A stretch of 64,000 nt of DNA from Pseudoxanthomonas sp. CF385. Lineage in GTDB: Bacteria; Pseudomonadota; Gammaproteobacteria; Xanthomonadales; Xanthomonadaceae. The DNA is taken from contig NZ_FNKZ01000001.1 of NCBI RefSeq assembly GCF_900104255.1, forward strand, positions 62,001 through 126,000, read 5' to 3'. Of the stretch, positions 239 to 34,127 are shown piece by piece; the first letter of the stretch is position 1, and each line of letters opens with the position of its first letter. The translations under genes and the position numbers were made by a program. Under the pieces are notes generated by a model, which saw only the letters and a program-made list of their open reading frames with translations, was not told where the DNA came from and did not search any database.

Positions 239-307
239 TGTAGGATCCGGGAAAAGGTGAGACTCGTTGGTGCAAAAAGCGAGACCGTTTCGCCGAAAAG
301 ACGAGAT
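239..307 (+). repeat. transposon left end with three TnsB-type sites
   Basis: The terminal TGTAG (239-243) is followed, after 8 bases, by AAAAGGTGAGAC (252-263). Related copies follow: AAAAAGCGAGAC (274-285) and GAAAAGACGAGAT (295-307). The outermost 25 bases match the right end in inverted orientation at 18 positions, with TGTAG and AAAAGGTGAGAC equally spaced. In Tn7, arrays of TnsB-binding sites mark the ends, so these repeats are inferred to be TnsB sites. Between 308 and 584 I see no convincing gene. Confidence 0.85.
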
Positions 308-584
308 TTTTCGGGAGCTTTCAGCTGCGCAAACGTGCGCAAAATAGCCGGAGTTATGCACATTAGGCGTCTATTTCGCCGATCTTGACTCACTAGGCAC
401 CCTCCCCGCCACCTGAATCGACGTGTTGCTGGCAAGGCCGCTACCCGTGCTGCCAAAGCAGGGCATCGGGCTGGTTACATGGGCGGCCACCAAAGCCCAT
501 GCATACAGGCCGCAGCCAATACGCCCCCTACGAGCGAGCGCGCCGGACCGCTCGCGCGCCGACTTGCCGCGGGGGCCAGGGCGC

Positions 585-1451
585 TCAGCGGGTACGCTCC
601 TCCCACGGCTGCCAGGCACTCATGCCGCGCGGCAATACCAGCAGAGTTAGCGTCGTGTCGTACTCAGTCGCGGAAATTTTCATCTCACGAACTGACAGCT
701 GTTTCGGTGCGTGAGGAAACCATGTCGCCGCCGCAACCTCCATGCCAGCACGGTCATCGCTGATGGAGTCGTTAGCGGCTAAAGATCCTGCGGGGACTTC
801 AACCAATTGCTTACGAGACCGGAAAAATGCTCCATTCCTTGCTGCCGCGGTGCTCGAGAATGCCCACTTCATAAAGCCATCGCGATGGACAATGAGAACG
901 GCAGCCAAGTCCGTATGCTTCAACCATCGCAGCGTGACCGCTGTTAGCGAAACGCCGTACCTTGCGGCGCACGCACCCAATCCCTGGAAATCCGCGCACC
1001 CGCTCATCTGCTCGCGAAAATCGTTGAGCGGCATCAGCAACGTTGCTGCAAATGCATCTGCCTGTGCCTCAACCGTGACCTCGTCTGTGTCACGGTTTAC
1101 AACATCGTCCTCTGCACAGCTGAACTGATCACGCTGCTGGCGATGAAGAACGTAGTGCCCCAGCTCGTGAGCTTGAGTGAACCGAATTCGGCCGGGCGAC
1201 CTGATAGCTTCGTTGTATAGCAAACACCACTTGCTCTTTTCATCGTTAGCGAAAAGAGCGCCCTCAAACCCCGGTATGCGAGCCGCTTTCACCTCAGTGA
1301 TAGGGTCCTTCCAACCCAACTGGTTGGCAGCGTCCTGAGCCAGCTCGCCCACATCCACAGGAAATCTCCGTGTGCCGTGGAACTGGGCAAACAGATCAAG
1401 AACATGAGTGAACTTGTATGCCGCCTTTGACGGCGTCAGCTCCACAGTCAT
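585..1451 (-). CDS. ImmA/IrrE-family zinc metallopeptidase
   Basis: A 288-residue protein with the HELGHYVLH zinc motif (H95, E96, H99) and the downstream VEAQADAF stretch (third ligand E128), typical of ImmA/IrrE (COG2856) peptidases. Such enzymes cleave a partner XRE repressor in the cytoplasm and so switch on mobile-element or stress genes. The start is ATG at 1451, overlapping the stop of the upstream XRE gene by one base (TGATG), so the pair is translationally coupled. It is the outermost gene at the left end of the transposon. Inference: it inactivates the adjacent XRE protein and could relieve repression of cargo or transposition genes; the substrate is not shown by sequence. The C-terminal ~120 residues have no motif I recognise. 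Confidence 0.88.
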   Translation of the reverse strand: MTVELTPSKAAYKFTHVLDLFAQFHGTRRFPVDVGELAQDAANQLGWKDPITEVKAARIPGFEGALFANDEKSKWCLLYNEAIRSPGRIRFTQAHELGHYVLHRQQRDQFSCAEDDVVNRDTDEVTVEAQADAFAATLLMPLNDFREQMSGCADFQGLGACAARYGVSLTAVTLRWLKHTDLAAVLIVHRDGFMKWAFSSTAAARNGAFFRSRKQLVEVPAGSLAANDSISDDRAGMEVAAATWFPHAPKQLSVREMKISATEYDTTLTLLVLPRGMSAWQPWEERTR

Positions 1452-1774
1452 CAAGGGCTCTTCTTGAACGACTCCATGATCTGGCGCATTACAGCTTTGC
1501 CGCTTGCATCAAGATCCTTGTAGTTACGAAAGAAGGCTTCGTCCACATGCGCTTCTGCAGGCGTTGTCACTTCGTCTTCAAGAAAGTAGGCGACCGGTTG
1601 GCCAAGGATCTTAGCGAGCGCATCGAGCTTCTCCGCAGAGGGCTTAGGAGCGGGACGATTTTCCAGCTCCCATAGGTAGCTCTTGCTCATTCCGGCCCCT
1701 GAGGCCAGCTCATCTAACGTCAACCCTCGCTCCTTTCGAAGCGCGCGGATCTTGTCGCCCAGTTTCGTGCTCAT
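1451..1774 (-). CDS. XRE-family helix-turn-helix regulator
   Basis: A 107-residue protein. Residues about 6-60 form a Cro/C1-type HTH (KIRALRKERGLTLDELA, then GMSKSYLWELE), followed by an acidic linker and a short C-terminal helix. It heads a two-gene unit with the ImmA-type peptidase (stop TGA 1451-1453 overlaps the next ATG). XRE/ImmA pairs act as a repressor with its own protease, as in ICEBs1 and many phages. Three ACCGAAC heptamers lie just upstream (1815-1880) and could be its operators. The start ATG at 1774 is the first codon of the HTH domain and gives a normal length. Confidence 0.9.
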   Translation of the reverse strand: MSTKLGDKIRALRKERGLTLDELASGAGMSKSYLWELENRPAPKPSAEKLDALAKILGQPVAYFLEDEVTTPAEAHVDEAFFRNYKDLDASGKAVMRQIMESFKKSP

Positions 1775-1811
1775 AACATTGTTAATATTTCGTTACATTC
1801 CCCGGTACCAC

Positions 1812-1880
1812 TATACCGAACTTTCTGTTTGACAACACCGAACCAGCGGGGCACACTCAATCCCGTTCGTCAGACCGAAC
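1812..1880. promoter_or_regulatory. three ACCGAAC repeats upstream of the XRE gene
   Basis: The heptamer ACCGAAC occurs at 1815-1821, 1837-1843 and 1874-1880 in the same orientation, in the leader of the minus-strand XRE/ImmA unit. On the minus strand a TTGTCA hexamer and a TATAGT hexamer lie within this region, but their spacing (14 bases) is short for a sigma-70 promoter. Repeated heptamers next to an XRE gene suggest autoregulatory operators; this is inference. Confidence 0.4.
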
Positions 1881-2213
1881 AAAAGTTGCCGGGGTCATGT
1901 TAGAAATCTGGCACTCCGTCACGCAGAGTGCTAGGCTGTTAAGCAAACGATAAGGGCCCGGCACTGTGGCCGAGCCCCTGATATAGAAGTTCACGCTCTT
2001 TCAAAACACAAGATCTTGAGGCCGACTCGTAATCGGCCGAATCCCAAAATCACACCTGCAAGGTATTCAGCTTGGTGTGGTCTTGCGGGGAAGAGCGGCT
2101 ACCCGCCAGGGCAGACGAAGAATTATGTTTGCTCAAATCCTAGTCTGTCAACAGCCGCGCTAATTCCCTGTGAGTTCCTGGTTGGATACCTCCTGCCATG
2201 AGGATTCACGACG
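1881..2213. other. gene-free stretch with three hairpins
   Basis: No credible ORF is seen. Three short inverted repeats follow each other: GCACTC/GAGTGC (1911-1916 and 1926-1931), GGGCCCGGC/GCCGAGCCC (1954-1962 and 1969-1977, one G-U pair) and GGCCGA/TCGGCC (2020-2025 and 2033-2038). They could be attenuator or small-RNA structures ahead of the small gene at 2214, or chance. No riboswitch class is recognised. Confidence 0.35.
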
Positions 2214-2363: not shown

Positions 2364-2379
2364 GGCCGTTTAGTGCAAT

Positions 2380-2958: not shown

Positions 2959-3051
2959 GCCCCTGTAGCTCAATGGTTAGAGCAGCGGTTTTATAACCCG
3001 TCAGCGCCAGATAAGCGGCTTGTGCCGGTTCGAGTCCGGCCAGGGGCACCA
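2959..3051 (+). tRNA. atypical tRNA, apparent anticodon UAU (Ile), long variable region
   Basis: A 93-nt cloverleaf. Acceptor GCCCCTG/CAGGGGC, discriminator A, encoded CCA (3049-3051), D-arm GCTC/GAGC, and T-arm GCCGG-TTCGAGT-CCGGC are all canonical. The anticodon arm reads GCGGT-TTTATAA-CCCGT, giving UAU, which would decode the AUA isoleucine codon; the closing pair is mismatched. Between the anticodon stem and the T-stem there are 22 bases. A region this long is normal only for Leu, Ser, Tyr and Sec tRNAs and is not expected for Ile. It sits alone in transposon cargo, just ahead of two exonuclease genes. It may be an element-borne tRNA for rare AUA codons, a decoy, or a tRNA with an insertion. 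Decoding identity is uncertain. Confidence 0.75.
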
Positions 3052-4325: not shown

Positions 4326-4334
4326 CCAAAGATA

Positions 4335-10972: not shown

Positions 10973-11033
10973 TTCTAATGTCTGAACTAAGCCGACCCAC
11001 GGAGAGGGTTCGGCTTAAATGAACTGTTAAGAC
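10973..11033 (-). repeat. attC-like integron recombination site
   Basis: On the minus strand the order is GTCTTAAC, a short spacer, TAAGCCGA, a loop, TCGGCTTA, a spacer and ATTAGAA. The inner arms TAAGCCGA/TCGGCTTA (10988-10995 and 11010-11017) match the L''/L' boxes of classical integron attC sites. The outer boxes differ from the consensus (RYYYAAC and GTTRRRY) by one or two bases. The TAA stop of the HEPN gene lies inside the outer box, as is common at cassette ends. No integrase gene or second clear attC is seen, so it could also be a terminator-like hairpin. Confidence 0.5.
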
Positions 11034-13597: not shown

Positions 13598-13620
13598 GAC
13601 GGTGGGACAGTCCCACCGTC
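13598..13620 (-). terminator. hairpin at the end of the TPR-CHAT gene
   Basis: GACGGTGGGA (13598-13607) and TCCCACCGTC (13611-13620) form a perfect 10-bp stem with a 3-base loop. It overlaps the TGA stop (13619-13621) of the minus-strand gene and is followed on that strand by GTTAAAG. Probably a terminator or 3' stabiliser. Confidence 0.6.
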
Positions 13621-17408: not shown

Positions 17409-18305
17409 CTACTCCCTCACTGTGTCCAACGTTTTCGTGGCCTCTCTGAATGCAGCTTCAGCCTCGTTCATCTCGGCCATGGCCAGCACCTGTTCTGGAA
17501 ACCACTCCCTCAGAAACCGCTCCGTGATGCTGTCTGGGACCGCAAAGATGGGCCTGAGTCGACCGCCGATCCCCTCGACATCCCAGATCTTCTTGGCCAC
17601 CTCCTCTTGGAGTGTGCGCCAACTCACCAGCAGCTGCGGTTGGTTCATGGCAGCGAACATGAATTCCTGCCTTGTAATATCGGCTGCGTGCCTAGCTACC
17701 TTGGGCTTGCGCGCACGTTTTGCGATGAAGTAGCACGCCATAGCGAACACGAATCGATCCTGCGCTCTCAGTTCGCTGAAGTGCGGATCAGAGAAGGCCT
17801 CTTCGATGACACCCGTATCCTGGTAGATCTCGATGTTGGGATTGCCCGAGCCCGGTTCACTGCCGCTGTGCGCCCAAGGCCAGAAGCGCTCCCGCACGCG
17901 CCCCCATACCGAATCCACCGCATAGGTCATGACCGCACCGAATCTGGCGTCATGCTCGGTGCAATCGAGCATGTGGAAGATCGGGTGGTTCCCCCAGTAG
18001 ATAGCGTCTATGTCCGGGCGGCCCTGCTCGATACTGGACACCGTGATCCAGCTGGGACCATGGCCGTTGCGTAGATTGCGCATCGTGCCGTTGGTGGGAT
18101 GGGTCCCGCCCGCTGCTTTGCGTAGCACCAGGTCCAGCCGGTCCGGCTCCCACACGCCCACTTTCATGGCGGCTTCGCAGAAGACCGCCTTACCTACGCA
18201 TGGGCGCACCCCCTCTCCCCAACGCTTCTTGCCCTTGAGCGCCTGGGGCAACGGGAGGGGCGTTACCACATAGCACGGGGCGTCTTCCCGATAAATTCTG
18301 TACAA
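17409..18305 (-). CDS. hypothetical protein heading the CHAT trio, 298 residues
   Basis: A soluble protein of about 298 residues if TTG 18305 is used, or 251 from ATG 18164 (MKVGVWEPDRLDLVLRK). No signal peptide or membrane segment is seen. Segments include IDAIYWGNHPIFHMLDC, rich in aromatic and His residues, and a C-terminal helix (VLAMAEMNEAEAAFREATK). The start is uncertain because no strong ribosome site precedes either codon. It ends four bases before the longest possible start of the membrane gene, so the three genes probably form an operon. It could be the sensor or a substrate of the downstream protease; function unknown. Confidence 0.68.
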   Translation of the reverse strand: MYRIYREDAPCYVVTPLPLPQALKGKKRWGEGVRPCVGKAVFCEAAMKVGVWEPDRLDLVLRKAAGGTHPTNGTMRNLRNGHGPSWITVSSIEQGRPDIDAIYWGNHPIFHMLDCTEHDARFGAVMTYAVDSVWGRVRERFWPWAHSGSEPGSGNPNIEIYQDTGVIEEAFSDPHFSELRAQDRFVFAMACYFIAKRARKPKVARHAADITRQEFMFAAMNQPQLLVSWRTLQEEVAKKIWDVEGIGGRLRPIFAVPDSITERFLREWFPEQVLAMAEMNEAEAAFREATKTLDTVRE

Positions 18306-18369: not shown

Positions 18370-18660
18370 TTGTTTCCTGACAATGACATTGCCGCGCGCG
18401 GCCAGGAACTGGAGCGCTGGCTGCTGACAGAGTTCGGACCGGTTCTGAGTGGCCTGCCCCTGAGCAAGCTGCTCGGCCATCCCTCTCCTGGAGCATTCAG
18501 GCAGGCGGTGCGCCGCCATGGCGCCCCCGTTGCCTTGTTCCAACAGGGCGGCCGGAAGGGCTGGTGTGCCGCTACCAAAGAGGTCGCCTTCTGGATTGCC
18601 CGTACCGAGGCCGCCGCCCAGGCGCTCTCCACTCAAACCCCACCGGAGAAGACCCCATGA
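18370..18660 (+). CDS. small protein upstream of tnsA, possible regulator, 96 residues
   Basis: The frame starts at TTG 18370 (no good ATG) and ends at 18660. The product is soluble, with a helical start (ELERWLLTEFGPVLS) and a basic middle (GAFRQAVRRHGAPVALFQQG, then RKGWCAATKEVAFWIART) that could bind nucleic acid. It is divergent from the CHAT trio (65-base gap) and about 200 bases upstream of tnsA on the same strand. Small regulators often sit beside tns operons, so a role in transposition control is possible but not shown. No family is recognised. Confidence 0.58.
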   Translation: MFPDNDIAARGQELERWLLTEFGPVLSGLPLSKLLGHPSPGAFRQAVRRHGAPVALFQQGGRKGWCAATKEVAFWIARTEAAAQALSTQTPPEKTP

Positions 18661-18705
18661 ACTGACCCACATAGAGGCTTACACACTCTCCGGGCCAGAA
18701 ACGCA

Positions 18706-18731
18706 GAAAGCCAGACTCACGTCTGGCTTTC
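18706..18731 (+). terminator. 11-bp hairpin between the small gene and tnsA
   Basis: GAAAGCCAGAC (18706-18716), loop TCAC, GTCTGGCTTTC (18721-18731): a perfect stem 45 bases after the small gene. The T residues sit at the stem end. It probably ends the upstream transcript and insulates tnsA. Confidence 0.65.
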
Positions 18732-18836
18732 CGGAATTGCAAACAAAAGCTTTGGCCGGCTTTGTTGCGATTCTGGACTGCGCGGCCGCCCCCTGTCAAC
18801 GGGGTGAGCCCTCGTGCCCGGATCTTTCCTTTACCT

Positions 18837-18860: not shown

Positions 18861-18866
18861 GATCCG

Positions 18867-19619
18867 ATGTCCCTGTTTACCCCTGACTTGGGCGTACCGC
18901 GCCCCAGCTTTCCGATGGTCCTGCCCCGCTGGCCGGCCCCCGATCTTCACGATGCCCTGATCACCTGGTGGTGGCCCCCCGCTGGGGAGGTGCGGGCACG
19001 CAACGTGCTCAGCCGTGGCGCCATGCGGGCCATCTACCGCTTCAGCAGCTGGAAGCTGGCTCGAAGCGTTCACTTCGAATCTGCCCTTGAGGAGCAAGTC
19101 GCGCTGCAGCTGGATGCCTGTCCCACCGTGCGCGCCTACGCCGAGCAGCCAGTGCTCATGGAGTATGCGACGCCTTACGGCGGCTGGGCTCGCCACTATC
19201 CGGACTTCGCGGTGCTTCACCGCGGGTTGCGAGCCTTTGTCGAAGTTAAGTTCGCGCGTGACGTGGATGCGTCGGTTCTGGAGCGCACTCAGCACTTGAG
19301 CATGCTGCTGGCGCCCCTGGGCATCGCGTATCGGCTGGTGACCGAGGTCGACCTGCCGTCTCCTGCTCGTCTGGCCAATGCTTGGTCCCTGTTGTCTCGT
19401 GGACGTACTGCCATCACGGACCTCCAGGCCCTGCTGGTCCATCAACAGGCGCTAGACGGCGTATCGCTGGCTGATCTGGGCTGGGGACGAGTCGCTAACG
19501 CACGGTCACTGGCTCGCCAGATCATGGAGGGGCGCATCAGTGTGGACCTGTCCCGGCCGATCGGCTTGGACACCATGGCCTACACCTCCGAGCATAAGGA
19601 GGGTTGGCTGTGGGCATAG
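18867..19619 (+). CDS. tnsA: Tn7-like transposase subunit TnsA (endonuclease)
   Basis: A 250-residue TnsA-type PD-(D/E)xK endonuclease. Catalytic residues are E71 (HFESALEEQ), D113 (HYPDFAV) and E126/K128 (FVEVKFA). In Tn7, TnsA cuts the 5' strands at both ends and works only with TnsB, giving cut-and-paste rather than replicative movement. ATG 18867 follows AAGGAT. An upstream extension of the frame to 18762 is Pro-rich and lacks a ribosome site, so it was rejected. It is the first gene of tnsA-tnsB-tnsC-tniQ, and its stop overlaps the tnsB start. All nuclease residues appear intact. Confidence 0.95.
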   Translation: MSLFTPDLGVPRPSFPMVLPRWPAPDLHDALITWWWPPAGEVRARNVLSRGAMRAIYRFSSWKLARSVHFESALEEQVALQLDACPTVRAYAEQPVLMEYATPYGGWARHYPDFAVLHRGLRAFVEVKFARDVDASVLERTQHLSMLLAPLGIAYRLVTEVDLPSPARLANAWSLLSRGRTAITDLQALLVHQQALDGVSLADLGWGRVANARSLARQIMEGRISVDLSRPIGLDTMAYTSEHKEGWLWA

Positions 19620-21640
19620 GACTCTTCAAGGCCGGCCAGCATTTTGATCTGGACGGCAAACGACAAAAGATCACCCGGCTGCTCGATAAAGAGCGTATCG
19701 AGTTCGAAGATCCGCAGTCGTCTCGCCGGCAAGAACTGACACGGAGTGAAGCGCTGGATCTGTACACCAGCGGTAACTTCGTCTTTCGGCCCATCATCAA
19801 TGTCGAACCGGACAAGCGCGCCCGTTCGCGGGTCATGAGCAACACCCTGCTCGCCTCTGTGCCACCCCTGCTGCGGGACCTGGCCAAGCTGCGACTGCAC
19901 TTTGTTACAAAGCTTGCCCACTTCCCGACCACGCGAGCTCGTCTGACGCCGCTAGTGCAAGCCTTGTGGGAAAAGCTCAAGCCAGCAGACCTTGCACTGA
20001 TGCCTGAGTGTCCGCATGCCAGCAGTGTGGCGCGCTGGATGAAGCAGTACCGCGACGCGGAGAACAACATTGTCGCCCTGCTCGATCAGCATGCACTGAA
20101 GGGCCATCGCGATCGCATCCCGCAGAAGGTGCTGGACCTCATGGAGGACTGCGTTCGGGATGGCTATCTCACCCCTCATCGCAGAAACATCACATCTGTA
20201 CTAAGCGACATCAATGGTCTGATCGATGACACCAATCTGATGCTCACCCCATCAGAGCAACTGTCCCCGATCAGCTACGAGCAGCTCCGCAAGTACATCA
20301 GCAAGCTTCCCGCCTATGAGGTCTATGCGGCCCGCTACGGCGAGCAAGCGGCGGACATGAAGTTTCGCAACACGGGCAAAGGGGCGTCGGCCGCCCTGCC
20401 CTTGCAGCGCGCTGAGATGGATCACTGCAGACTCGATCTGTTCGTGGTCGACATGGAAACGGGTCTGCCACTGGGTCGACCCTGGCTGACGGTGATCATC
20501 GATGCGTGCACCCGCATGATCCTGGGCTTCTCTCTGAGCTTCGATGCGCCCAGTAGCTTGACGGTCATGCGAGCCCTGCGGCATGCGGTACTACCGAAGA
20601 CAGACCTGGACGATGTCACCCAGCCTTGGCCGACCTGGGGAATCATGCGCACCTTGGTGGTGGACAACGGCGTCGAGTTCCACGGCTCCAGCTTGGACTA
20701 CGCCGCCGGCCAATTCGGTATCACGATTCAGACGTGCCCTCGGCGCCAGCCCTGGTTCAAAGGCAGGATTGAGCGGTTCTTCCGCACACTTCAGACCGAT
20801 CTGATCTCTCTGATCCCGGGGCGAACGTTCTCTTCCATTATCGAACGCGGCGATTACGACAGCTCCAAGCACGCCGCGATCACCTTAGAGACACTGAATC
20901 GGGTGATCAACCTCTGGATTGCGGATATCTATCACCAGAGCACCCACTCCTCCATCAGACAAACACCCGCCCAGAAGTGGGAAAGCCTCATCGATAAGGT
21001 GGACCGCCACCTTCCCGACTCGGCCCAGTGGGTGGATGCGGCATTCGGGAAGCCGGAGACGCGCGTTGCTGGCCACGAAGGCATCTTGAAGGATTCGCTT
21101 TACTACAACTGCGCCGAGCTCGGCGTCATGCGGCAACAACTGGGCGAAAGGATCACGGTCGACATCATTACCAACGATGAGGACGTGGGCTATCTGTATG
21201 TCGTACATCCCGAGACTGGCGACTACATCAAAGTGCCGGCGATTGATGAGGACTACGCGAGCGGCCTGACCCGCTGGCAACACACCAAGTGCAAGGAGTA
21301 CGCCAGGTACCTGTCGGAGAAGGGCGAGGATCGCGTCAGCCTGCGCGACGCGAAGCTGAAGATCGTCGAGATGATTGAAGAGGACATGGTGGTGAATCGC
21401 CGCAAGAGCCGCGCAGCGCAAAGCCGAGCCCGCAGCATGAGGAAGCAGAACTCTTCCAAGCCCGCTACCACTTCCGCACGGCCAACCTCGTCAGCTAAGC
21501 GAAAGGGAGGAGCCTCAGCGCGGCCTGCGGAACAGGACGCCATGCACTCGCCTCGCAACCCTTCAGTCGCTCGTGATGACGATCTTCTCGACCTCACCGT
21601 CACCGTTGCCGTGCCCTACACACAGGAGGCCGCCGCATGA
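19610..21640 (+). CDS. tnsB: Tn7-like transposase TnsB (DDE integrase)
   Basis: A 676-residue DDE recombinase. The retroviral-integrase core has D271 (AEMDHCRLDLF), D352 (LVVDNGVEFHG) and E388 (GRIERFFRTLQ), with the typical 35 residues between the last two. N-terminal DNA-binding domains precede it, and a basic Arg/Ser/Lys-rich tail (after about residue 585) probably contacts TnsC. TnsB recognises the end repeats and joins the 3' ends to target DNA. GTG 19610 is chosen because AAGGAGG lies at the right distance; a TTG six bases earlier is too close to it. The gene overlaps tnsA by 10 bases and tnsC by 4 (ATGA). Confidence 0.96.
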   Translation: MGIGLFKAGQHFDLDGKRQKITRLLDKERIEFEDPQSSRRQELTRSEALDLYTSGNFVFRPIINVEPDKRARSRVMSNTLLASVPPLLRDLAKLRLHFVTKLAHFPTTRARLTPLVQALWEKLKPADLALMPECPHASSVARWMKQYRDAENNIVALLDQHALKGHRDRIPQKVLDLMEDCVRDGYLTPHRRNITSVLSDINGLIDDTNLMLTPSEQLSPISYEQLRKYISKLPAYEVYAARYGEQAADMKFRNTGKGASAALPLQRAEMDHCRLDLFVVDMETGLPLGRPWLTVIIDACTRMILGFSLSFDAPSSLTVMRALRHAVLPKTDLDDVTQPWPTWGIMRTLVVDNGVEFHGSSLDYAAGQFGITIQTCPRRQPWFKGRIERFFRTLQTDLISLIPGRTFSSIIERGDYDSSKHAAITLETLNRVINLWIADIYHQSTHSSIRQTPAQKWESLIDKVDRHLPDSAQWVDAAFGKPETRVAGHEGILKDSLYYNCAELGVMRQQLGERITVDIITNDEDVGYLYVVHPETGDYIKVPAIDEDYASGLTRWQHTKCKEYARYLSEKGEDRVSLRDAKLKIVEMIEEDMVVNRRKSRAAQSRARSMRKQNSSKPATTSARPTSSAKRKGGASARPAEQDAMHSPRNPSVARDDDLLDLTVTVAVPYTQEAAA

Positions 21641-22731
21641 ACCACGTTCTTACTGTTCCGCCACAGCCCAACACTGACCTCACGCTCCACCTGAGCAAGA
21701 TGGCTATGTTGAGGGTCGAGACACCGATATTCGTCGAATCACACGACATCTTGGATCGAGTGCTGAAAGAAGTTGGCACTACGTGTACACCCGCCTTCAA
21801 GCATTTTGTCGGTCATTCAAAAGCTGGCAAGTCCTACATATTCCGGCAATTCGAGATGAGGTTCCCAGCCGAACGAACTCCAACCGGAATACGCAAGGAG
21901 GTGATCTACGTCCAGGTTCCTTCACAGGGCACCATCACCGGCGTCGTTGAAGCGTTGCTTGAGGCGCTCGGAGACCCCAAGTACGCCGAGGGGCCAGTCA
22001 ACAAGAAGACGGCAAGACTCAATAAGCTGCTCGTCAAGGTCGGCTGCAAGATGGTGATTCTTGACGAGTTCCAGGAACTCGTGGACAAGAACCAGAACAG
22101 GTCGCTCAGTCTCACCACTAACTGGCTCAAAGAGCTTGCTGAGATGGGCACCTTGAGCGTCGTATGTGTCGGCTTGCCAAGCTCCAGTCGGATTGTTCGG
22201 CATTGGGAACAACTGCGCACGCGATTCAGCCGCACCATCGAGATCCCCGTACACGACTGGACCGATGCACGATCCAGGAAGGTCTTCCGCTCTGTGCTTC
22301 GCGGCGTCTACAGCTCCATGGCACCTTTCAGTGTCCCAGACCTGACTTCAGAAGAGCTCTCGCTTCGCTTTTTCATTGCATGCGGCGGTCGCCTCGGTTT
22401 GCTGTGGCGCATCCTCGACCAAGCAGTGAAAGATGCAATCTGGGAGAGCCGGACCGAGATCTCGCTGGCGCACCTCGACGCGGCTTTCCAAGAGGCCATC
22501 TGGTATGCGGGCGAAATCCCCATGGAAGGCGGACCGTTCTATGGCTCCCTTTCTCCTGACCAGCAGCAGCGGCTATGCGGCGTCGCCATGTACTTGGCGC
22601 AAAGGCCACCCAAAGATCAGGAGGACGAAGAGCTGCATCTGGGATCCATGCAGAGGGATAAGGAAGAGGCCCCAGCCAAACCCTTGAGTAAGAAGCAGCT
22701 GAAGGCCGAGTTGAATCGGGCTCTGACATGA
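21637..22731 (+). CDS. tnsC: Tn7-like AAA+ regulator TnsC
   Basis: A 364-residue AAA+ ATPase with Walker A GHSKAGKS (residues 59-66) and Walker B VILDEFQEL (D143, E144). TnsC links target selection by TniQ/TnsD to the TnsAB transposase, and its polymerisation also underlies target immunity. The C-terminal ~60 residues are charged (QEDEELHLGSMQRDKEE). The start overlaps the tnsB stop (ATGA) and the end overlaps tniQ (ATGA), so the operon is translationally coupled. Length and motifs are normal for the family. Confidence 0.95.
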   Translation: MNHVLTVPPQPNTDLTLHLSKMAMLRVETPIFVESHDILDRVLKEVGTTCTPAFKHFVGHSKAGKSYIFRQFEMRFPAERTPTGIRKEVIYVQVPSQGTITGVVEALLEALGDPKYAEGPVNKKTARLNKLLVKVGCKMVILDEFQELVDKNQNRSLSLTTNWLKELAEMGTLSVVCVGLPSSSRIVRHWEQLRTRFSRTIEIPVHDWTDARSRKVFRSVLRGVYSSMAPFSVPDLTSEELSLRFFIACGGRLGLLWRILDQAVKDAIWESRTEISLAHLDAAFQEAIWYAGEIPMEGGPFYGSLSPDQQQRLCGVAMYLAQRPPKDQEDEELHLGSMQRDKEEAPAKPLSKKQLKAELNRALT

Positions 22732-24221
22732 GCTTGCTCTCGGAGATTCAGGCAACCGATCCGGTTCGCCCCCTAGTGGTCACGCCGCTTCCCGATCCCC
22801 GGGAGGCGGCTATCGGCTACGCCCTACGGTTGTGCGATGAGAACTCCTACGACTCACCCACCATGTTTCTGGGTGGTGTAGGCCTAGACCTCACAAGTCA
22901 GGCGCTGGGTGGAACGGCGCCAGTCCTCTCCGCTTTGACTGTCAAAGATGAAGCCACGTATGAGCGGATCGTTATCCGCAAGGCAGAGGATCATTCCTAT
23001 TTCCTGAAGGAGCAGCGTCTATCGGGACGACATGTGAACTTCCATCATCACAAGATCTGCCCGGTCTGCGTACACACTTATGGCGTCCACGATGCGAGCT
23101 GGCATCTCTCGCTGATTACACACTGTCCGGCACATAGAGTGGCACTAGCTAACGAATGTCGGCAGTGTGGCTCGGGCTATCGGATGAACCGGCCGGGTAC
23201 TAATCGCTGCAAATGTGGGGCTCCGGTTTCCGAGCACCCTTCTGCGCAGCCGTGCAGCACCGAGGTTGCAACTCTCTTCGCCACTATGAGAGCGAAGCTT
23301 TTCAATGACACGTGTATCGCAACGCCGCCTCGCGAGCTTTCCGCGTTTGAGGATGCAAGTCTCAATGAGTTCCTGAACCTCATCAATGCTATGCACAAGT
23401 TCGTAGTCCAGCACTGCCGAAACCTGGTCGGGGATAAGCTTCTGACCCGTGAGCAGAGGGCCATGCATGTTGTCGCCACCGCGCTACTCCAGCTAGAACA
23501 GGGGGTTGACGTATTTCATGGAACATTGAGGGGCAGGCCTGTTGCATCGGATGAGTACGTGCCTGCAGCAGCCTTCCGTTGGTTCAAGGTGCACCATGCG
23601 GGGCTGATCAAGACGGCTGGACTTTCGTTCCTGGCAGGAAGGATTGATGCCTTCCTTGCCGAGCGACGCGTGCTCAGACCCAAGAGCGAAGCCCAGCGCG
23701 GGCCGAGATCCCCAGAGGCGGCGCTGCGGCGGGAGGAAGCACTGCGAGACTCAGAGGCCTTCAACAGAAAGTGGGTGCTAGCCGACAAAGCAGGCTCTCT
23801 GACAGACTGTGACGACGACTATGTCAGATGGGCAGCGCGCCTGAAGCTCTTCACTTGGGCGAAGGGCATTGGCAATCGCATGGTCGTGGCACGAGAGGAG
23901 ATCTTGCGGCTGCGGCTCTCTGCCTCCATCGGATTGCAGCCCGAGGAGGCTTCCGCTCTCGCGGACATCCCCGTCCAACTGTTCAATCGCCTGGCGCGAT
24001 CTAGGATACATGTCGCGCAGTTCATCCCTTCGACGGGGGGGCCGCACTCAAAAGAGGATGTACTACGCCTTAAAGGTTCTATCGATGACGCACGTCACGT
24101 CGTCATTGAGGGGCTTGGGCAGACCGTCCAGCAGTTCCTCAATCGAACCCCGAAGTCGATGCTGAACTCCACAAAACCTTTAGTGGAGACAATGGCCAAG
24201 CATAGACGCAGCACTCAGTAG
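22728..24221 (+). CDS. tniQ: TniQ/TnsD target-selection protein
   Basis: A 497-residue TniQ-domain protein. The N-terminal half carries the zinc-binding cluster CPVCVHTYG (C111, C114), then HCPAHRVAL and ECRQCG...CKCG, typical of TniQ. The second half is TnsD-length, long enough for a DNA-binding region that reads a fixed site. Short TniQ proteins of about 300-400 residues are typical of CRISPR-associated elements, whereas long ones bind chromosomal attachment sites. As the only TniQ here and with the element inside comF, it most likely recognises comF sequence; this is inference. It is the last gene of the tns operon. Confidence 0.92.
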   Translation: MSLLSEIQATDPVRPLVVTPLPDPREAAIGYALRLCDENSYDSPTMFLGGVGLDLTSQALGGTAPVLSALTVKDEATYERIVIRKAEDHSYFLKEQRLSGRHVNFHHHKICPVCVHTYGVHDASWHLSLITHCPAHRVALANECRQCGSGYRMNRPGTNRCKCGAPVSEHPSAQPCSTEVATLFATMRAKLFNDTCIATPPRELSAFEDASLNEFLNLINAMHKFVVQHCRNLVGDKLLTREQRAMHVVATALLQLEQGVDVFHGTLRGRPVASDEYVPAAAFRWFKVHHAGLIKTAGLSFLAGRIDAFLAERRVLRPKSEAQRGPRSPEAALRREEALRDSEAFNRKWVLADKAGSLTDCDDDYVRWAARLKLFTWAKGIGNRMVVAREEILRLRLSASIGLQPEEASALADIPVQLFNRLARSRIHVAQFIPSTGGPHSKEDVLRLKGSIDDARHVVIEGLGQTVQQFLNRTPKSMLNSTKPLVETMAKHRRSTQ

Positions 24222-24245
24222 GAGCTACGAGCTAGCTCTTTCGAC

Positions 24246-24725
24246 TCAAGCGCCTCCCGAGCCGTAGACAGCGAGTTTTAACTCGAGATATTGCCTTTCG
24301 ACAGTACTGAAGTCCGCGCTATCTAGCCACCGTCTGAAGTCGGTTCCCGGATCTGAGCTTGCTTCCCTCTCGACCTCCTTGACCAACCTAGGATCTCCGA
24401 ACACGACAGAGAATCTGTTGGTTGAATCCTTGAACAGGAACAATTCAGCTGAAGCTTCGAGAACTACTGCCGCGTATGAGAACTCCGACAGATATGCCGT
24501 CAGAGCCAACTCGTTGGACTCCAGTGTCTCGACTGATATGAAATCCAGGCCATTGACGGCGAAAGCTTTAACGAGTTCGCCCCGTGTACAGCAAGATCGG
24601 ACTAGGTCGTCGGAAGGGAAGTCGGGGAATATCGCGCTGCTCCAGCGCCTTGCTGAGATGACATCAACAGAAGGCTGCCCCTTCGCATCCATTAGCGCTG
24701 GATGCCCGCCTACCTTAATCATCAT
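24246..24725 (-). CDS. hypothetical protein, possible immunity protein
   Basis: A 159-residue soluble, acidic protein with no signal peptide. Features are DFISVETLESNELALTAY and SAELFLFKDSTNRFSVVFGD in the centre and a C-terminal helix VERQYLELKLAVYG. It is convergent with tniQ (24-base gap) and third in a minus-strand row after the RHS gene and a small membrane protein. Genes downstream of RHS toxins often encode immunity proteins, but I see no family match. An unrelated cargo gene is equally possible. Confidence 0.58.
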   Translation of the reverse strand: MMIKVGGHPALMDAKGQPSVDVISARRWSSAIFPDFPSDDLVRSCCTRGELVKAFAVNGLDFISVETLESNELALTAYLSEFSYAAVVLEASAELFLFKDSTNRFSVVFGDPRLVKEVEREASSDPGTDFRRWLDSADFSTVERQYLELKLAVYGSGGA

Positions 24726-24765
24726 TCCCTCAGGTCAACACGGCCTATAAAGGCACACGCCCCAC

Positions 24766-25110
24766 CTACCGTTCAAGCGACCACACTCCCATGGAGACCG
24801 CGATAACAACGATGGTTGCGACAACTACCCACAGAAGCAGTGTCGGTAAAGAACCAAATACGACGCCAACAAAGTCGCGATGCAAAGCTCCGACGAGCTC
24901 ACTAGCGTCGTTGTTATACTTCTCTCGGAAGTAGCGCCACCTGTAGACAGAGTACAGCGTCGTCATCGCCCATGCGGCGGTTAGTCCGGCTGTTGCCGGA
25001 CGCGAGCCATCTTGACTAAGGATTGCCACTACCACAACTAACGGGCCCATCGCCATCAAATACATTAGGGCGAACCGACCCCAACTCAAGCTAAATGCGC
25101 TGTCCGACAT
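24766..25110 (-). CDS. small membrane protein, possible RHS immunity
   Basis: A 114-residue protein with three hydrophobic segments: LMYLMAMGPLVVVVAILSQ, then a shorter one around LTAAWAMTTLYSVYRW, and LPTLLLWVVVATIVVIAVSM near the C-terminus. A basic loop (RWRYFREKYNNDASEL) lies between. It begins 64 bases after the RHS stop, beyond a perfect hairpin, on the same strand. Small multi-pass proteins can be immunity proteins for membrane-active toxins; this is only an inference from position. Confidence 0.6.
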   Translation of the reverse strand: MSDSAFSLSWGRFALMYLMAMGPLVVVVAILSQDGSRPATAGLTAAWAMTTLYSVYRWRYFREKYNNDASELVGALHRDFVGVVFGSLPTLLLWVVVATIVVIAVSMGVWSLER

Positions 25111-25133
25111 ATCGTCATCTCACCATTGAAGTA

Positions 25134-25160
25134 GGTGGTCGGCGCAGCGCGCCGACCACC
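25134..25160 (-). terminator. 12-bp hairpin between RHS and the small membrane gene
   Basis: GGTGGTCGGCGC (25134-25145) and GCGCCGACCACC (25149-25160) pair perfectly around a 3-base loop. No T-tract follows on the minus strand, so it may be an attenuator reducing expression of the downstream genes rather than a full stop. Confidence 0.6.
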
Positions 25161-25174
25161 GAGAAGAATAGCGT

Positions 25175-28100: not shown

Positions 28101-29566
28101 TAGTAGTACGTAGTTTCCAGCTGTCCGACGACCGTCTTCTTGAAAACTTTGTCTTGAAGGTTGCCGCCATACCACTCGTAAGTAGTGGTACGCTGCCTCG
28201 GAGTTCCGTAGGCCTCGATCATCACTAGCAACTGACCTTTATCGCTGTATTGATAGGCTGTCTTGTTGCCATTGTGATCCTCCTGCATGGCCGGATGTCC
28301 ATTCACGTCGTACTCGGTAAGCGCATATGTAGCGACCGGGCAGTTCGGACTTGCATGCCCCACCGTGCTGATGTGGCGACCGTTTTCAAACGCGAAGGTG
28401 GTTTGCTTCCCTAGCGGGTTAGTTTGCACCACGGACATTGCACCATTGGCGCCCGTTGTGTACTGAAAGGTGAACTTATCAAGCCCGTTGTGTTCGCTGC
28501 TCGTCGCACGGCGAGATGCGTCGTAGGTAAACTTTGAGTACCGTACGCCGTTGAAACTCTTACCAGTTAGCGCGGTGTTATCCGCTATTTCATAGTGGTA
28601 GGTAATTGTTGACGCTGGTACTCCCGGCTTTGCTGTAGCGACCAACCTGTTGTATCCGGCGCCAAATGTGTTCTCGTTGTAAGAGTAGCCATAGTAGTTG
28701 CCAGCGGGATCCCTAACAGCCGTCAGACGGTTTCCGGTCCAGCTAAATTCGACGTACCGCCCGGAAGTATGGGTGACTCGATAGGGGTAAGTCCCGTTGG
28801 TGTACGTGAATGTCCAGCCAACGTTAAACCTGTTGTACCTGGATTGAATGTAGCCAGCGGACGAGTAGACCTCCGTTTCACCATCTTCAGTGAAGAGAAT
28901 AAAGCTTCCGTTCGGCTGCTGTTCAATTCGAGCGATCGGTCCCGGTCGATCCTCGTAGAAGATTCCGTTAGCGTCACGATCAAACTTTAGCGTCCTTCCA
29001 TCAGGGCGCCATGCATAGATCGTGGTTTCAGCGCCGATGCCACAAGCACCGCCTCCTGGGCGTGGGTGACATGAGTCCAGCGCGATTGTCCCAAATGTTA
29101 GCTTGTAATCGAAGTTGCTTATCCAGTGCTTGCCGAAGAGGCCAACACCCGTCCAGTAGTGGTTGTATGTTCTAGCCAGACTTAGGCTCATGTCGCCACT
29201 GGTGGAGAAGTCCAGCTCCGGTTCGATCTTGTTCCCCGTCGAAATCACGATCGGATTTCCACCGCATGGAGCTAGCGCCGCGGCGACAGTCTCACCTATC
29301 GATCTAAGTAGATCTGGAAGATCATCTATTGGTGACATCGACTCCGATTCAACTAGGTCAGCTCGACTTCCTCCACCCGAGCTACCTAGCCCGCCCGCAC
29401 CAGGGACACCAACGAAGCTGCACTCCTCCCTTACACCAACGACATTTCCCTGGTCATCTCGTACGGTTACGTAAGTCTTGACGTAGCCGACAGGGCATGC
29501 CGAAGCAACGAAGCTAGTACCAAGGATCATTAGCCCCGCCAATGCTGCGGCCCAGCGTCGTCTCAT
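25175..29566 (-). CDS. Sec-exported RHS-repeat protein, probable polymorphic toxin
   Basis: About 1463 residues from ATG 29566 ([16 protein letters not shown]), which starts directly on a signal peptide; ATG 29635 would add 23 residues. After an N-terminal DUF6531-type region ([11 protein letters not shown]) come many YD/RHS repeats ([31 protein letters not shown]). The RHS core ends at [26 protein letters not shown] and DPTGL, the usual boundary before a variable C-terminal toxin. The tail is about 140 residues, hydrophobic at first ([16 protein letters not shown]), and ends with PCPCNK; I recognise no toxin family. RHS shells encapsulate and deliver toxic tips in competition. As transposon cargo with possible immunity genes downstream, it could be an interbacterial weapon or an addiction-like module. 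Confidence 0.88.
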
Positions 29567-30012
29567 AGGACGTCCGCCAACCAGAATTCTGCGCCGCACG
29601 AATCCACCGACAGTCAGATCTGACGCCACTTCCATATAGATTTACCCCTGGTCGCCTAAGCGAGCGCGTCACCCCTGACGCGCTTCGACTTCAGGCTAAA
29701 CCCATTCGCTCAGTACACGCATTTATCAAGGCACGCTGAGGTTTGGGGCGCACTGGCTACGCTTGAATGGCGATCGAGTTGAAGTTCCAGTGATTCTACG
29801 CATGCTTAGGATGAGCCGAACTGATCGCAGCCCGCCCCTTGGCATCGCATTGCTTACTTCGGCGGCGCATGCTGACACGAGATGCTGGGGCGCACTTGGG
29901 GAGGTTAGCTAACTTCGCACTTAGGTATCGGATACAAAGGAACAATGGGCGGCCGTCGGCTTGCGAGAGGGAACGCTTTCCTTCCCGTACCGCCGGCGGG
30001 AATCCGAGAGCA
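29567..30012. other. gene-poor region between ietS and RHS
   Basis: No convincing gene is seen. AGCGCGTCA/TGACGCGCT (29663-29671 and 29676-29684) form a perfect 9-bp stem around CCCC, just upstream of the RHS frame. The region must hold the RHS promoter and the end of the ietS transcript. Confidence 0.4.
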
Positions 30013-32602
30013 CTATCCCGCTCGAATCTCCACTGGCGGTTCGATCCGCTGGCGTATCTCTTGATACAGTGGAATTTCGGAGTTGATTGCTACCTCCAAC
30101 GACACGCATATGCAGAAGCGGATGGGCTCTGAGAAGCCTCCGGCATCCTCAGCGCAGTTAACTTTGCAAGTGAATTTTGCCCCATCAACGTAGGCGAGAG
30201 CACGCTCGCCCTCGAAGATCTGATGCTGCACTGTGCCTCGACGTGCAGCGTTATGCTCTGCTGAGTTCTCTCTTTCAACGCCAACTTCCGTACCGACGCC
30301 AGTCATCCATAGCCGGGCGCAGCGATAGCTTTGATGTGCGTGATTTGTTGGCGAGATCCAAGCAAGTGTCGCAGTCATTCGTCGCCACTCTGTTGTCCCA
30401 GCCAAACTGGGCGGTAATGGTGCTGAGAACTCGAATGCATTGTCGGCGCTCAATGCGCCCACACCGATAATCGTTGCTCGCTGAGCTGTGGAAGCGAGTG
30501 ACCGCTCAGGGTTCAAAGCGCCGTAACCCAGCCACCTCGCTAGGAAGTCTTTCTCCTTCCTACGCCTTGCAGCTGTGTCCTGGATCTCCGCTATATCGGC
30601 TCGGAGCGCCAAGAGTGCGTTTTGAAGGTCACCCCATGAAGTGCCATGCACTAGCAGCGCCTTGATCAACACCGCGTCGTATTGAGGCCCCGGGGCAGAT
30701 GGGATGGTTCGCCTCAAATCCTCAAGGCCCTCGTAAATCTGTACTGCGAGCCGGCTCGTTAATGCCGCAGCGTTGCTGGTTCCACGAGTGTATCCCGTGG
30801 GATCTGCGGCATCTGAGAGAGGCGGTACGGCAACTCGCTGACCTGGTGACCGGCGAACGGAAACGGGCACTGCACGAGTGATGTTCGCATCTCCACCAAA
30901 CCCCTCAGCGTGCAGACATCTACCTCCAGGAGCTAGTAGGTCTGGCTTGATTGATCGCTTGTAGCCATGGCCTATTCTAGAAAGTGGACTTATACCCGGC
31001 GTGCTGAACAGATCGATGCGATCGACCACAGGAGTGATGTTTGCGGCATCGGAGTGGAGTGCTCCTATGGTCAGTGCATTCATCGCCTCTGCGGGCGATA
31101 TAAAGCCTGCGACGATCCGCTTGCTGGAGCAGAGTAGCCAATGCGAGATCACGCCTCTGCGTTTCGAGCATGCCGGACAAGCTTCCCCGAGGCACTGGCA
31201 TCTCTAGCTCGCTAGCATCGTTCCCCGCACTCACTATGAAGAGCACGTTATAGCGATGCGAAAGCCAGTCGATCAGCCGAGCCCACGGAGAAATGTCTCG
31301 TGAGAAGACTCTGTTCGAGTCGCCGAGAGAAAGATTGATGATCTTTATGCTTGGCGCGATCGGGCCGCTACCGGACTCTCCTTGGCATATCCTCTTTACT
31401 GCTCGGTGAACCAGGTCGATAAGCAGCACATCATTAGGTACGGATTCTGCACGTCGCTCGTGGTAGTTGTCTTCGGGATCTGGCCTAAGGACGGGACGAG
31501 CATAGATCTTTCTCGACAGAGGGACTTCATTCGCGTCTAGCTCTCCGTGAAAGATCAGCGACGCCATTGCCGTTCCATGTACGCGATCCTTGGCCTCGTA
31601 GGCGGATTCCCAGCCGTCTGGGTCATCTATGATGAGCGCGCTCCTCAACAGAGCGTGATTTGCCATCGGCAGGCCGTCGAGTAGAGCAAGAACAGGGGGG
31701 GAACTTTCCTCTACCCGAGTCTCTGCTAAGACTTGTTCACTCTCCTCTATTTCTCCTCCCTCCACACATTGTGGCCGTGGCCGGAAGTACATGATTCGGT
31801 CAGACAGGACCAGATCATTCACTTCTCCACTCAGGATCTTCTCGATTGCATGCCGTGGGAGCTCCACCAGAACTCCTTGGTAGGCGATCTCATGGATGTG
31901 AGCCTCGCTTATGACTGTGCCATTGAGGTCGCCTATCTGGCGCCTTATCTGCGCGACGGTTGCTGCATTCTTGTCAAAAGAGTTGAAGTACCACGCCTCA
32001 ATCTCGAAACGAATAAGTTCCTTTCCGCTATCTAACTCATCTTGCCAGTATGCAAGAACATCCGTATTTAGTCGGTCCTGCACATCCCAATAGCGGATGG
32101 CTTTCAGGTGTTTGAAGACGTACTTGAAGGATGCATACCCATGGTCGAATGGTGCCTGCGGGTCGCGCTCGTAACGCTGCCAAAGCGCAATGAGCTGGTC
32201 CAGCGCTTCCTTGTTCGATCCAACGAGGAAGATGCGCCCTGTTAGATTCGACATTGGAGCATCTGGAACGAAGAAGTCTTCATCAGGCGCGACTTGTTCC
32301 TCCATCAGCTCAAATAGCCACTCCAGGCCTTGAACTCGCCCAACAGCATTGGCAAATTGTTCGGTCGAGCCCATGACCTCCATCACGAGCACCAGCTCTG
32401 GATTGTCTACAGGCGAGTCGCCTTGAATTCTCAGGCGCCTACCATCCATCGCGCCCTGCAGAACAGAAAACTGTGGCGCGATGCGCTCGCGCTGTCGCTC
32501 AATTGGCGGGGTATGTATAGAGGGAGGGCGGCCGCTTAGATCATTGCGCGCCAGAGCCGCACGCTCGGGAAAGAACAGTAGCGGAAAGTCACCTTGCGAC
32601 AT
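30013..32602 (-). pseudogene. ietS: frameshifted ietS, subtilisin-like protease of an IetAS pair
   Basis: Two minus-strand frames together make one S8 (subtilisin-like) protease of about 860 residues. The upstream frame (32602 down to 30977) has the catalytic Asp in LALLDGLPM (D309) and His in VHGTAMAS (H342). The downstream frame, reaching 30013, has the catalytic Ser in GYTRGTSNAAAL. The frames meet near 31104, where the minus strand reads AGGCTTTATATCG; removing one T would restore RRRLISPAEAMNALTIGALH. So a 1-base insertion separates Ser from Asp/His and should inactivate the enzyme, unless it is a sequencing error or programmed frameshift. IetS works with the AAA+ ATPase IetA in an anti-phage system. 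ietA lies 16 bases upstream and is intact. Confidence 0.83.
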
Positions 32603-32618
32603 CCATGTCTCCCAGTGA

Positions 32619-33599
32619 TTAGGCTTGCGCGACTACGCTAAACCTCGATTGCCACTGCTTCAGGCGCTCTTGGAGAATCGCCTTCAAATTGGCATTTGGC
32701 AAAGAAAGTACATACCTTCGTTGAACGTCTTCGCAGAACTGTTCGAGATCAGAGAAGTTGCCGACGTTAAGCTTTGCTGCAAGCGACTTGGGTGTAATTC
32801 CGAGTGGCGCCTCCAATTTTTCCTGAAGGCGACGGAACCAGTCTTCTTTCTGCTCAAGCGTGGGTGCGGGCATCTCTAGACGCAACTGAAATCTGCGCCA
32901 AACGGCGCGATCTAGCAGCTCCGCATGATTAGTAGCTGTAATGACGACAACATGACTCGGAAGCGCATCGATCTGGAGAAGCAGCGAACTTACGACACGC
33001 TTAATCTCGCCAGTCTCATGGGTATCACCACGTTCTTTTCCGAGAGTATCGAACTCATCGAAGAAAAGGACACATTGATGAGTTCGAACGAAATCGAATA
33101 GCCGCTTAAGGCGACTACTTGTTTCACCAAGGAAGCTACCAATCACCGCCTCGTAGCGCACCACAAAGAGTGGCGCCATAAGCTCGTGCGCTACAGCTTC
33201 TGCAAGTGAAGTTTTGCCGTTTCCAGGAGCCCCGGAAAGCAGCATGCGGTGACGCGGCTCCAGCCCGTAAGACCGCAGCAGATCGCGCCTCTGCTGCTCT
33301 TCAATCAACTCTCGACAGGCAGCCCGGACTCCCTCGCTGAGCAGCATCGAGTCGAGCGAGCGCGCCGGGTCAATTTCGTACAGCAATCCACCGTGGCCGC
33401 CGTCATGCGCCCGAATGACTTCTGCCGTCCGCCCACGCGGTGTTGCCGACTTCAGGTTCTGAACCAGTCGGTCCGCCAATTGGTGATGCTGTTTGGCCCG
33501 CTCTTCGGCCGCCATCGCTTCGACGGTGGTCCGAAAGAGCTGTTGGTCGCCCTCACTACCAGCCTTCACCAAGTTAACGATTAGGTCTGCTCGGGACAT
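32619..33599 (-). CDS. ietA: IetA, AAA+ ATPase of an IetAS defence pair
   Basis: A 326-residue AAA+ ATPase. Walker A is GAPGNGKT (residues 123-130), Walker B is VLFFDEFDTL (D181, E182), and sensor residues lie around ITATNHAELLDRAVWRRF. An N-terminal helical region of about 80 residues precedes the ATPase. The pair of AAA+ ATPase plus S8 protease in this order matches the IetAS anti-phage system reported among experimentally tested defence systems. ATG 33599 has GGTGGG upstream. It is first in the ietA-ietS operon; with ietS frameshifted, the system may be defective. It is divergent from a ribbon-helix-helix gene at 33739. Confidence 0.85.
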   Translation of the reverse strand: MSRADLIVNLVKAGSEGDQQLFRTTVEAMAAEERAKQHHQLADRLVQNLKSATPRGRTAEVIRAHDGGHGGLLYEIDPARSLDSMLLSEGVRAACRELIEEQQRRDLLRSYGLEPRHRMLLSGAPGNGKTSLAEAVAHELMAPLFVVRYEAVIGSFLGETSSRLKRLFDFVRTHQCVLFFDEFDTLGKERGDTHETGEIKRVVSSLLLQIDALPSHVVVITATNHAELLDRAVWRRFQLRLEMPAPTLEQKEDWFRRLQEKLEAPLGITPKSLAAKLNVGNFSDLEQFCEDVQRRYVLSLPNANLKAILQERLKQWQSRFSVVAQA

Positions 33600-33712
33600 G
33601 TACCCACCTGACGTTGCTCATGTTCGTCCATGCCGTGTACGGCTGTCCACGCACGGCCATTGAAGTCCATTGAAGTCCGGCTCCGTCTCGTCGCCTGTGA
33701 CAATATTGATAT

Positions 33713-33728
33713 TATCATAAATATGATA
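33713..33728. promoter_or_regulatory. AT-rich palindrome before the RHH gene
   Basis: ATCAT (33714-33718) and ATGAT (33723-33727) with flanking T/A form a 16-base inverted repeat ten bases before the ATG of the ribbon-helix-helix gene, between it and divergent ietA. Such sites are typical autoregulatory operators of RHH proteins. It could control both divergent units. Confidence 0.5.
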
Positions 33729-33738
33729 TGTTTTATGT

Positions 33739-33963
33739 ATGTCTAGCTTGGAACGACTCAGCCTTTGCCTTGCTGAGGATGAAATCGAGGCGTTGGAGAG
33801 CCTGCGCCGGAGGCTGGGGCTACAGGGCGCGCTCCTCAATAGGAGTGAGGTTATCCGTGCCGCCATTCGCCACCTGGCTGGGCGGGACGAAGCCGAGCTT
33901 CTACTCGCAGTAGAGGAAGTGCCCCGATTTAAGCCTGGGAGGCGCGCTAAGCGAGACGAATAG
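33739..33963 (+). CDS. ribbon-helix-helix (CopG-like) regulator
   Basis: A 74-residue protein with the RHH layout: a short strand (ERLSLCLAEDEIEALES) then two helices (LRRRLGLQG, NRSEVIRAAIRHLAG), followed by a basic tail (PGRRAKRDE). CopG/ParD-type RHH proteins bind as dimers to short palindromes, and one lies just upstream (33713-33728). The stop is about 30 bases before the innermost right-end TnsB-type site, so the gene is the last before the transposon end. Inference: a local repressor, possibly of ietA or of itself. No toxin gene is adjacent, which argues against a ParD antitoxin role. Confidence 0.72.
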   Translation: MSSLERLSLCLAEDEIEALESLRRRLGLQGALLNRSEVIRAAIRHLAGRDEAELLLAVEEVPRFKPGRRAKRDE

Positions 33964-33991
33964 GCGGGCGGCGCAAAGGGGATTCCGAAAA

Positions 33992-34127
33992 ATCTCGCTT
34001 TTTGCTGGACCGCTCCCCGGAAAATCTCGCCTTTCGGCCCACTTTCGATCTCGCACGAAGTGCAACGATCCCGCCTAAGTGGCTGATTACTAAAGGGGAC
34101 AGGTCTCACCTTTTGGCCCCCTCTACA
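33992..34127 (-). repeat. transposon right end with TnsB-type sites
   Basis: Read inward on the minus strand from 34127 the end is TGTAG, 8 bases, then AAAAGGTGAGAC (34103-34114), matching the left end at the same spacing. Further copies are GAAAGGCGAGAT (34024-34035) and AAAAAGCGAGAT (33992-34003), and a weaker GTGCGAGATC lies near 34047-34056. These are inferred TnsB-binding sites. A TGA stop in the comF frame lies at 34084-34086, so transcription from the element cannot give a ComF fusion. Confidence 0.85.

Follow-up and report, generated by a model that had tools for sequence, protein, structure and literature searches.

A Tn7-like transposon interrupts the comF gene of Pseudoxanthomonas sp. 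CF385 (Xanthomonadaceae). It lies in a 64,000-nucleotide stretch of that genome (contig NZ_FNKZ01000001.1, positions 62,001 to 126,000; hereafter the window, whose own numbering we use), where it spans 239..34127, a length of 33,889 bp with both boundaries defined to the base. We consider it very probable that this is a complete element of a lineage that homes to codon 20 of comF by means of a TnsD-type TniQ and switches the gene off. Related elements of three other Pseudoxanthomonas species occupy comF within the very same 3 nt, which argues for targeted homing. A first-pass annotation of the window had treated comF as an incidental place; with four elements in one 3-nt stretch, comF reads instead as a homing site. 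The ends, the duplicated target, and the severed gene are as follows.

181..238, plus strand: comF start codon and first 19 codons, severed from the rest
234..238: left copy of the target-site duplication, ACCCC, identical to 34128-34132
239..307, plus strand: end upstream of tnsA (the "right end" by Tn7 convention), with a TGTAG terminus and three packed TnsB-site-like repeats (252-263, 274-285, 296-307)
33992..34127, minus strand: opposite end, with a TGTAG terminus and three spaced repeats (34103-34114, 34024-34035, 33992-34003)
34128..34132: right copy of the target-site duplication, ACCCC, identical to 234-238
34133..34776, plus strand: comF remainder, starting at the first zinc-finger cysteine (PF18912, PF00156)

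The first-pass annotation had described inverted, equally spaced TGTAG ends flanked by ACCCC, and our analysis bears this out. Both ends carry TGTAG-N8-AAAAGGTGAGAC, at 239-263 (plus strand) and 34103-34127 (minus strand), where AAAAGGTGAGAC is an exact 12-mer lying 8 bases inward of TGTAG. No further copy exists in the window even with up to 3 mismatches allowed, and the two occurrences of the gapped pattern compare with a mean of 0.07 in shuffled sequence (0 of 100 shuffles reached two). The window contains 95 pairs placed around the tns operon with TGT..ACA ends and a matching 5-mer outside; of these, the pair 239/34127 scored 30.8 and the runner-up 10.6. Ungapped similarity of 25-bp ends is not unique taken alone and should not be over-read, as 18/25 is reached by 4 of the 896,196 pairs in the window with a matching 5-mer, namely the true pair and three chance pairs. 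The case for the ends is therefore made by the exact 12-mer, the TGT/ACA termini, and the relatives. The element is single-copy in its 3.88-Mb genome (one match for the left end and one for each end pattern).

The TGT/ACA termini, TnsB-site arrays, and 5-bp duplication together are those of a Tn7-like element. Using a 12-base matrix over the four comF elements, we located TnsB-like sites upstream of tnsA at about 13, 35, and 57 bp from the terminus. The sites near 35 and 57 bp are present in all four; the ~13-bp site scored in two and went unscored in Pseudoxanthomonas sp. PXM01 and P. sacheonensis, the former having two additional sites at 169 and 212. At the opposite end, sites lie 13, 92-93, and 123-125 bp from the terminus in 4/4 elements, with one more at 361 in the window and P. 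mexicana. The matrix was partly derived from the same ends and is to that extent circular, and its threshold yields 14-29 matches inside each element, so single matches carry little weight. It is the common asymmetric spacing that serves as evidence for the arrays. A packed right end and a spaced left end is the arrangement of Tn7.

The transposition genes stand in a single operon and their reading frames are all open, as the first-pass annotation had read them.

18867..19619, plus strand: tnsA (ORF open from 18762, ATG at 18867; PF08722, 4.6e-6), with residues E71, D113, and K128
19604..21640, plus strand: tnsB, DDE transposase (solved PseTnsAB, 3.9e-68; Tn6677 TnsB, 3.1e-63), with D271/D352/E388
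21637..22731, plus strand: tnsC, AAA ATPase (PF05621 TniB, 1.4e-24)
22728..24221, plus strand: tniQ, 497 aa, TnsD-type, with a TniQ domain and C-terminal tandem MerR/BldC-like domains in the structure model

The PF08722 match of TnsA, at 27.5 bits, is barely over the cut-off of 26.5. The protein has the E, D, and K residues of the cut-and-paste nuclease and is predicted to be catalytic. The D, D, and E of TnsB likewise align with those of the solved PseTnsAB (Tn7016-type) sequence, so that the catalytic residues named in the first-pass annotation are all present (numbered from ATG 18867 in TnsA and from two codons past TTG 19604 in TnsB). The TniQ model has a zinc-finger core resembling solved TniQ proteins, followed by the two MerR/BldC-like domains.

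A scan of 36 genomes of the genus with the window's TnsB gave four, its own included, with a TnsB at least 52.8% identical by BLASTP, and three further genomes with matches of only about 30%. The three relatives, P. mexicana DSM 17121 (G264), P. sacheonensis DSM 19373 (G218), and Pseudoxanthomonas sp. PXM01 (G242), have TnsB proteins 97, 57, and 53% identical and TniQ proteins 92, 44, and 32% identical to those of the window. All four elements lie between bioB (TIGR00433 in the window's genome, 403.9 bits against a cut-off of 225) and comF, within comF itself. The ends are at 36094-66887 in P. mexicana (duplication CGCCA), 76713-101445 in PXM01 (CCGAG), and 105534-142603 in P. sacheonensis (GCCAC), and in each element, ACCCC of the window included, the two copies are identical. 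In automatic ranking the true ends of these three came third, second, and third, behind chance pairs; we accepted them because they start with TGTAG and fall in comF. The first-pass annotation had proposed a search for the element elsewhere with a different duplication: the TGTAG termini and different duplications were found, but at the same stretch of comF rather than elsewhere.

The site used is the same in 4/4 elements. In the window, P. mexicana, PXM01, and P. sacheonensis, the duplication stops 2, 3, 1, and 2 nt short of the first zinc-finger cysteine codon of comF, whereas the length from the comF ATG to the insertion is 58, 60, 62, and 61. Orientation is also identical in all four, with the tns operon pointing toward the body of comF.

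The first-pass annotation had also proposed looking for an uninterrupted comF in relatives, and it is found in other species of the genus. comF occurs once in each of 38 Pseudoxanthomonas genomes. We read 30 of these loci (the remaining 8 are outside the count): 4 are occupied, and in all 26 others comF is unbroken across the site. Each occupied species has an empty relative with comF DNA 82-93% identical (G294, G117, G330, and G353), and for the window (G294) and P. sacheonensis (G353) the alignment runs gap-free across the insertion joint. The insertions therefore look later than the host splits, and independent.

The comF remainder encodes a double zinc ribbon and a phosphoribosyltransferase domain; the GntX and ComF (TIGR00201) models score below their curated cut-offs, which may reflect loss of the protein start. 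In the window, P. mexicana, and P. sacheonensis, no in-frame ATG, GTG, or TTG lies between the last stop and the zinc-finger cysteines, and PXM01 has a TTG seven codons ahead of them. No sigma-70-like promoter for the cut comF was found in 33600-34250. comF should be switched off and natural transformation blocked. In Helicobacter pylori, transformation was not restored by a ComFC in which two of the four zinc-finger cysteines had been replaced (PMC9005727). Our literature search on natural transformation of these strains turned up only a Xylella paper. comEC and comM are without stops and cover their models largely or completely in the four occupied and two empty genomes, and comM, which matches its whole model in the occupied genomes, is not an insertion site there.

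Constraint on comF shows no clear sign of relaxation on the occupied branches. Nonsynonymous/synonymous counts are 3/34 (window), 4/9 (P. sacheonensis), 3/11 (P. mexicana), and 3/20 (PXM01), against 6/20, 3/14, 1/9, and 4/6 for the empty partners in the same order, or 13/74 against 14/49 in sum, which are small numbers. The occupied branch has the higher ratio for P. sacheonensis and P. mexicana and the lower for the window and PXM01, and a second outgroup for P. mexicana gives 4/7 against 4/17. Either the insertions look young, or comF looks to be restored now and then.

Between the window and P. mexicana, the element has moved recently across species. Cargo identity (IetA 100%, an RHS-repeat protein 99.9%, the IetS pieces 98-99%), with TnsB at 97% and TniQ at 92%, lies far above that of host ComF (71%). 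The two share a block at 17459-34757 with 96% DNA identity, extending into comF, while their left cargo is mostly different. The first-pass annotation had suggested that the element may still be active; near-identical cargo in another species, together with open, undecayed comF remnants, strengthens this.

That all four hosts belong to one genus and carry the element in the same orientation would agree with a single ancestral insertion into comF, vertically inherited in Pseudoxanthomonas. We regard such a history as highly improbable. The relatives of each host are empty, the register shifts by up to 2 nt, the two copies of every duplication agree perfectly and suit the comF sequence of the host concerned, and the excess of cargo over host identity and the lack of clear relaxation in comF weigh against it as well. 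We consider equally improbable a random insertion whose comF survivors were kept since an element is more likely to persist once DNA uptake is lost. Elements disrupting a competence gene have a precedent at comM (PMC11472951), and selection may still have favoured the choice of site. However, survivorship of this kind would accept any of about 700 bp in either orientation, and all four elements lie within 3 nt in one orientation.

A further candidate for choosing the site is encoded beside the tns operon, together with two other conserved features.

17409..18305, minus strand: orphan gene, transcribed divergently from the tns operon and present in 4/4 comF elements
18370..18660, plus strand: small conserved ORF, 96 aa, upstream of tnsA; 98, 72, and 66% identical in the three relatives and 28% upstream of tnsA in a more distant genome (G212)
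18690..18760, plus strand: conserved stem-loop between the small ORF and tnsA, in all four elements (fold z -3.8)

The orphan protein has no match in Pfam, NCBIfam, PADLOC, or PHROGs, and a search of PDB and BFVD with its structure model, all helical with a pTM of 0.81, yielded no similar fold at E 0.001 or better. The protein could select the site, alone or with TniQ, much as TnsF does with TniQ in Tn6022. Its presence in all four comF elements would fit, as would the failure to detect it in the stretches examined of five other elements (G246, G212, G308, G180, and G126) and its having only two database homologues at E 1e-4. Against this, the gene is C-terminally shortened in P. sacheonensis, where the element is at the same site nonetheless; profile comparison shows no relation between the protein and TniQ; TniQ itself already ends in TnsD-like domains; and a regulator or cargo gene would look alike. 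We therefore judge the orphan an unlikely selector and keep TniQ as the probable one. The stem-loop is a possible terminator or control element, and Rfam gave no match near tnsA.

If TniQ binds the target, the DNA it recognizes could lie on either side of the insertion.

172..201: candidate recognition site, a GTCAAC-N18-GTTGAC dyad within the bioB-comF control region

This dyad is a putative BirA-type box. It is present in 4/4 occupied and 21/26 empty loci, 37-66 bp from the insertion, a distance overlapping the +23 to +58 covered by TnsD in Tn7 (PMC2918618). The end with overlapping sites appears nearest the recognized site (PMC11406308), and by this rule the recognized DNA of the comF elements would be on the bioB side. 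However, the window's lineage (with G294 and G318) is one codon short between dyad and insertion, and despite this the spacing between insertion and cysteine codon is maintained. These two arguments conflict. A conserved block on the left occurs in 4/4 occupied and 15/26 empty loci and a motif on the right in 4/4 and 10/26, so neither flank separates occupied from empty genomes; both were picked after viewing the occupied sites, and we claim no significance for them. We hold only tentatively, and with more doubt than belief, a fuller version in which a TnsD with MerR-like domains reads the bioB-comF dyad, landing beside the control site of a conserved biosynthetic gene and silencing DNA uptake, convergent with the comM route without TnsF and helped by an orphan protein of a new family.

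The exact end pattern gave only the window's own two ends in 395 genomes of the family; because the relatives' ends have diverged, TnsB was used as the query instead. A scan of 398 genomes of the order (E 1e-15) returned the four elements and two weaker matches, G180 and G476, and one of 369 genomes of the class (E 1e-20) the window's own genome only. Plasmids gave 9 weak partial matches, none covering 80% of the query. The comF-type TniQ was found at 3 named loci in assembled-genome contigs, all Pseudoxanthomonas (a count that may leave out records near the window's genome), and in no viral contigs. The protein database, which lists sequences apart from their gene context, has another five TniQ clusters at 83-91% identity and another three at 34-42%, which indicates a lineage larger than four elements.

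The more distant G180 and G212 have TnsB proteins 40-42% identical to the window's and the same operon order. In G180 (C182) the ends are at contig positions 11416 and 45957 with duplication CAGGT, and the element sits about 30 bp past the stop of a gene for a TSCPD-domain protein with a C-terminal zinc ribbon, which it leaves intact. G212 has the end of the same gene upstream of its tnsA, its own ends being unlocated. In both, the end upstream of tnsA faces this conserved gene, which fits the packed-end polarity, and the TSCPD-domain gene is a second home of the broader clade. An automatic search did not place the ends of G246, G212, G308, and G126 clearly, and a stricter end motif found nothing in these or in G180.

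The cargo, which lies on both sides of the operon, includes phage-defence genes.

585..1774, minus strand: CapP-like (585-1454) and CapH-like (1451-1774) pair (PADLOC, 2.8e-74 and 3.3e-29)
25175-29635: RHS-repeat protein, 1486 aa, cargo
30013..32602, minus strand: IetS, here in two frames (30977-32602 and 30013-31152), a single 862-aa frame in P. mexicana
32619..33599, minus strand: IetA of the IetAS phage-defence system (PADLOC, 2.2e-153)

An AAA ATPase IetA and an S8 peptidase IetS are both present, as in IetAS; with IetS broken, function of the window copy is doubtful. A HEPN AbiU2-domain protein at 11027-11668 is possibly another abortive-infection gene. A 914-aa TPR protein at 13619-16363 has a C-terminal half that by eye resembles a CHAT-type protease; no model matched. 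The cargo also holds a tRNA-Ile at 2959-3051 with anticodon TAT, an unusual isoleucine anticodon for bacteria, in a stretch also present in the P. mexicana element at 91%.

The element resembles Tn7 (TnsABC+D, attTn7 beside glmS) in its tnsA-tnsB-tnsC-tnsD order, TGT/ACA termini, 5-bp duplication, one packed and one spaced end, TnsD-sized selector, and fixed orientation. Unlike Tn7, which inserts downstream of glmS, its target is inside the comF coding sequence and is broken, its cargo lies on both sides of the operon, and no TnsE was recognized. General library searches of the window's ORFs, not every one of which was scanned, gave no TnsE-named match and no cas family, and no TnsF was recognized; no search aimed at TnsE or TnsF and no dedicated CRISPR search was made. 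Like the Tn6022/AbaR backbone (comM; TniQ with TnsF), it homes into and breaks a natural-transformation gene, but that gene is comF and it has a single long TnsD-type TniQ. The type I-F3 CRISPR-associated transposons Tn6677 and Tn7016 supply the nearest solved TnsB sequences; no cas family turned up among the ORFs of the window that were scanned. Disruption of comM by Tn6022/AbaR has been reported (PMC11472951, PMC10293859), and known exceptions to the harmless sites that Tn7-like elements usually enter are Tn6022 and a type I-B1 CRISPR-associated transposon group, both in comM (PMC11406308). TnsD homing of Tn7-like elements and disruption of competence genes are thus already known. We found no report of a comF-homing Tn7-like element in the literature searched, which did not extend to supplements; comF is not in the shown part of the example table of PMC11406308, and the one paper found on Tn7 with comFC has comEC interrupted, comFB intact, and Tn7 only as a tool.

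In the mechanism we propose, the single TnsD-type TniQ would bind host DNA beside the insertion point and recruit TnsC. TnsA and TnsB would then join the TGTAG ends 1-3 nt ahead of the first zinc-finger cysteine codon, always in one orientation and with a 5-bp duplication, in a cut-and-paste reaction of TnsA, TnsB, and TnsC at a site beside the bioB-comF control region. bioB retains its DNA up to the start of comF, while comF is parted from its start codon, which should block natural transformation.

A separate lineage that repeatedly enters comF, a further competence-family gene, with phage-defence cargo would, if our reading is true, give convergent support to the idea that mobile elements disable transformation so as not to be removed. 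The related occupied and empty species of Pseudoxanthomonas make this idea testable. Such a lineage would also widen the repertoire of TnsD proteins for targeted DNA insertion by one that has a new target.

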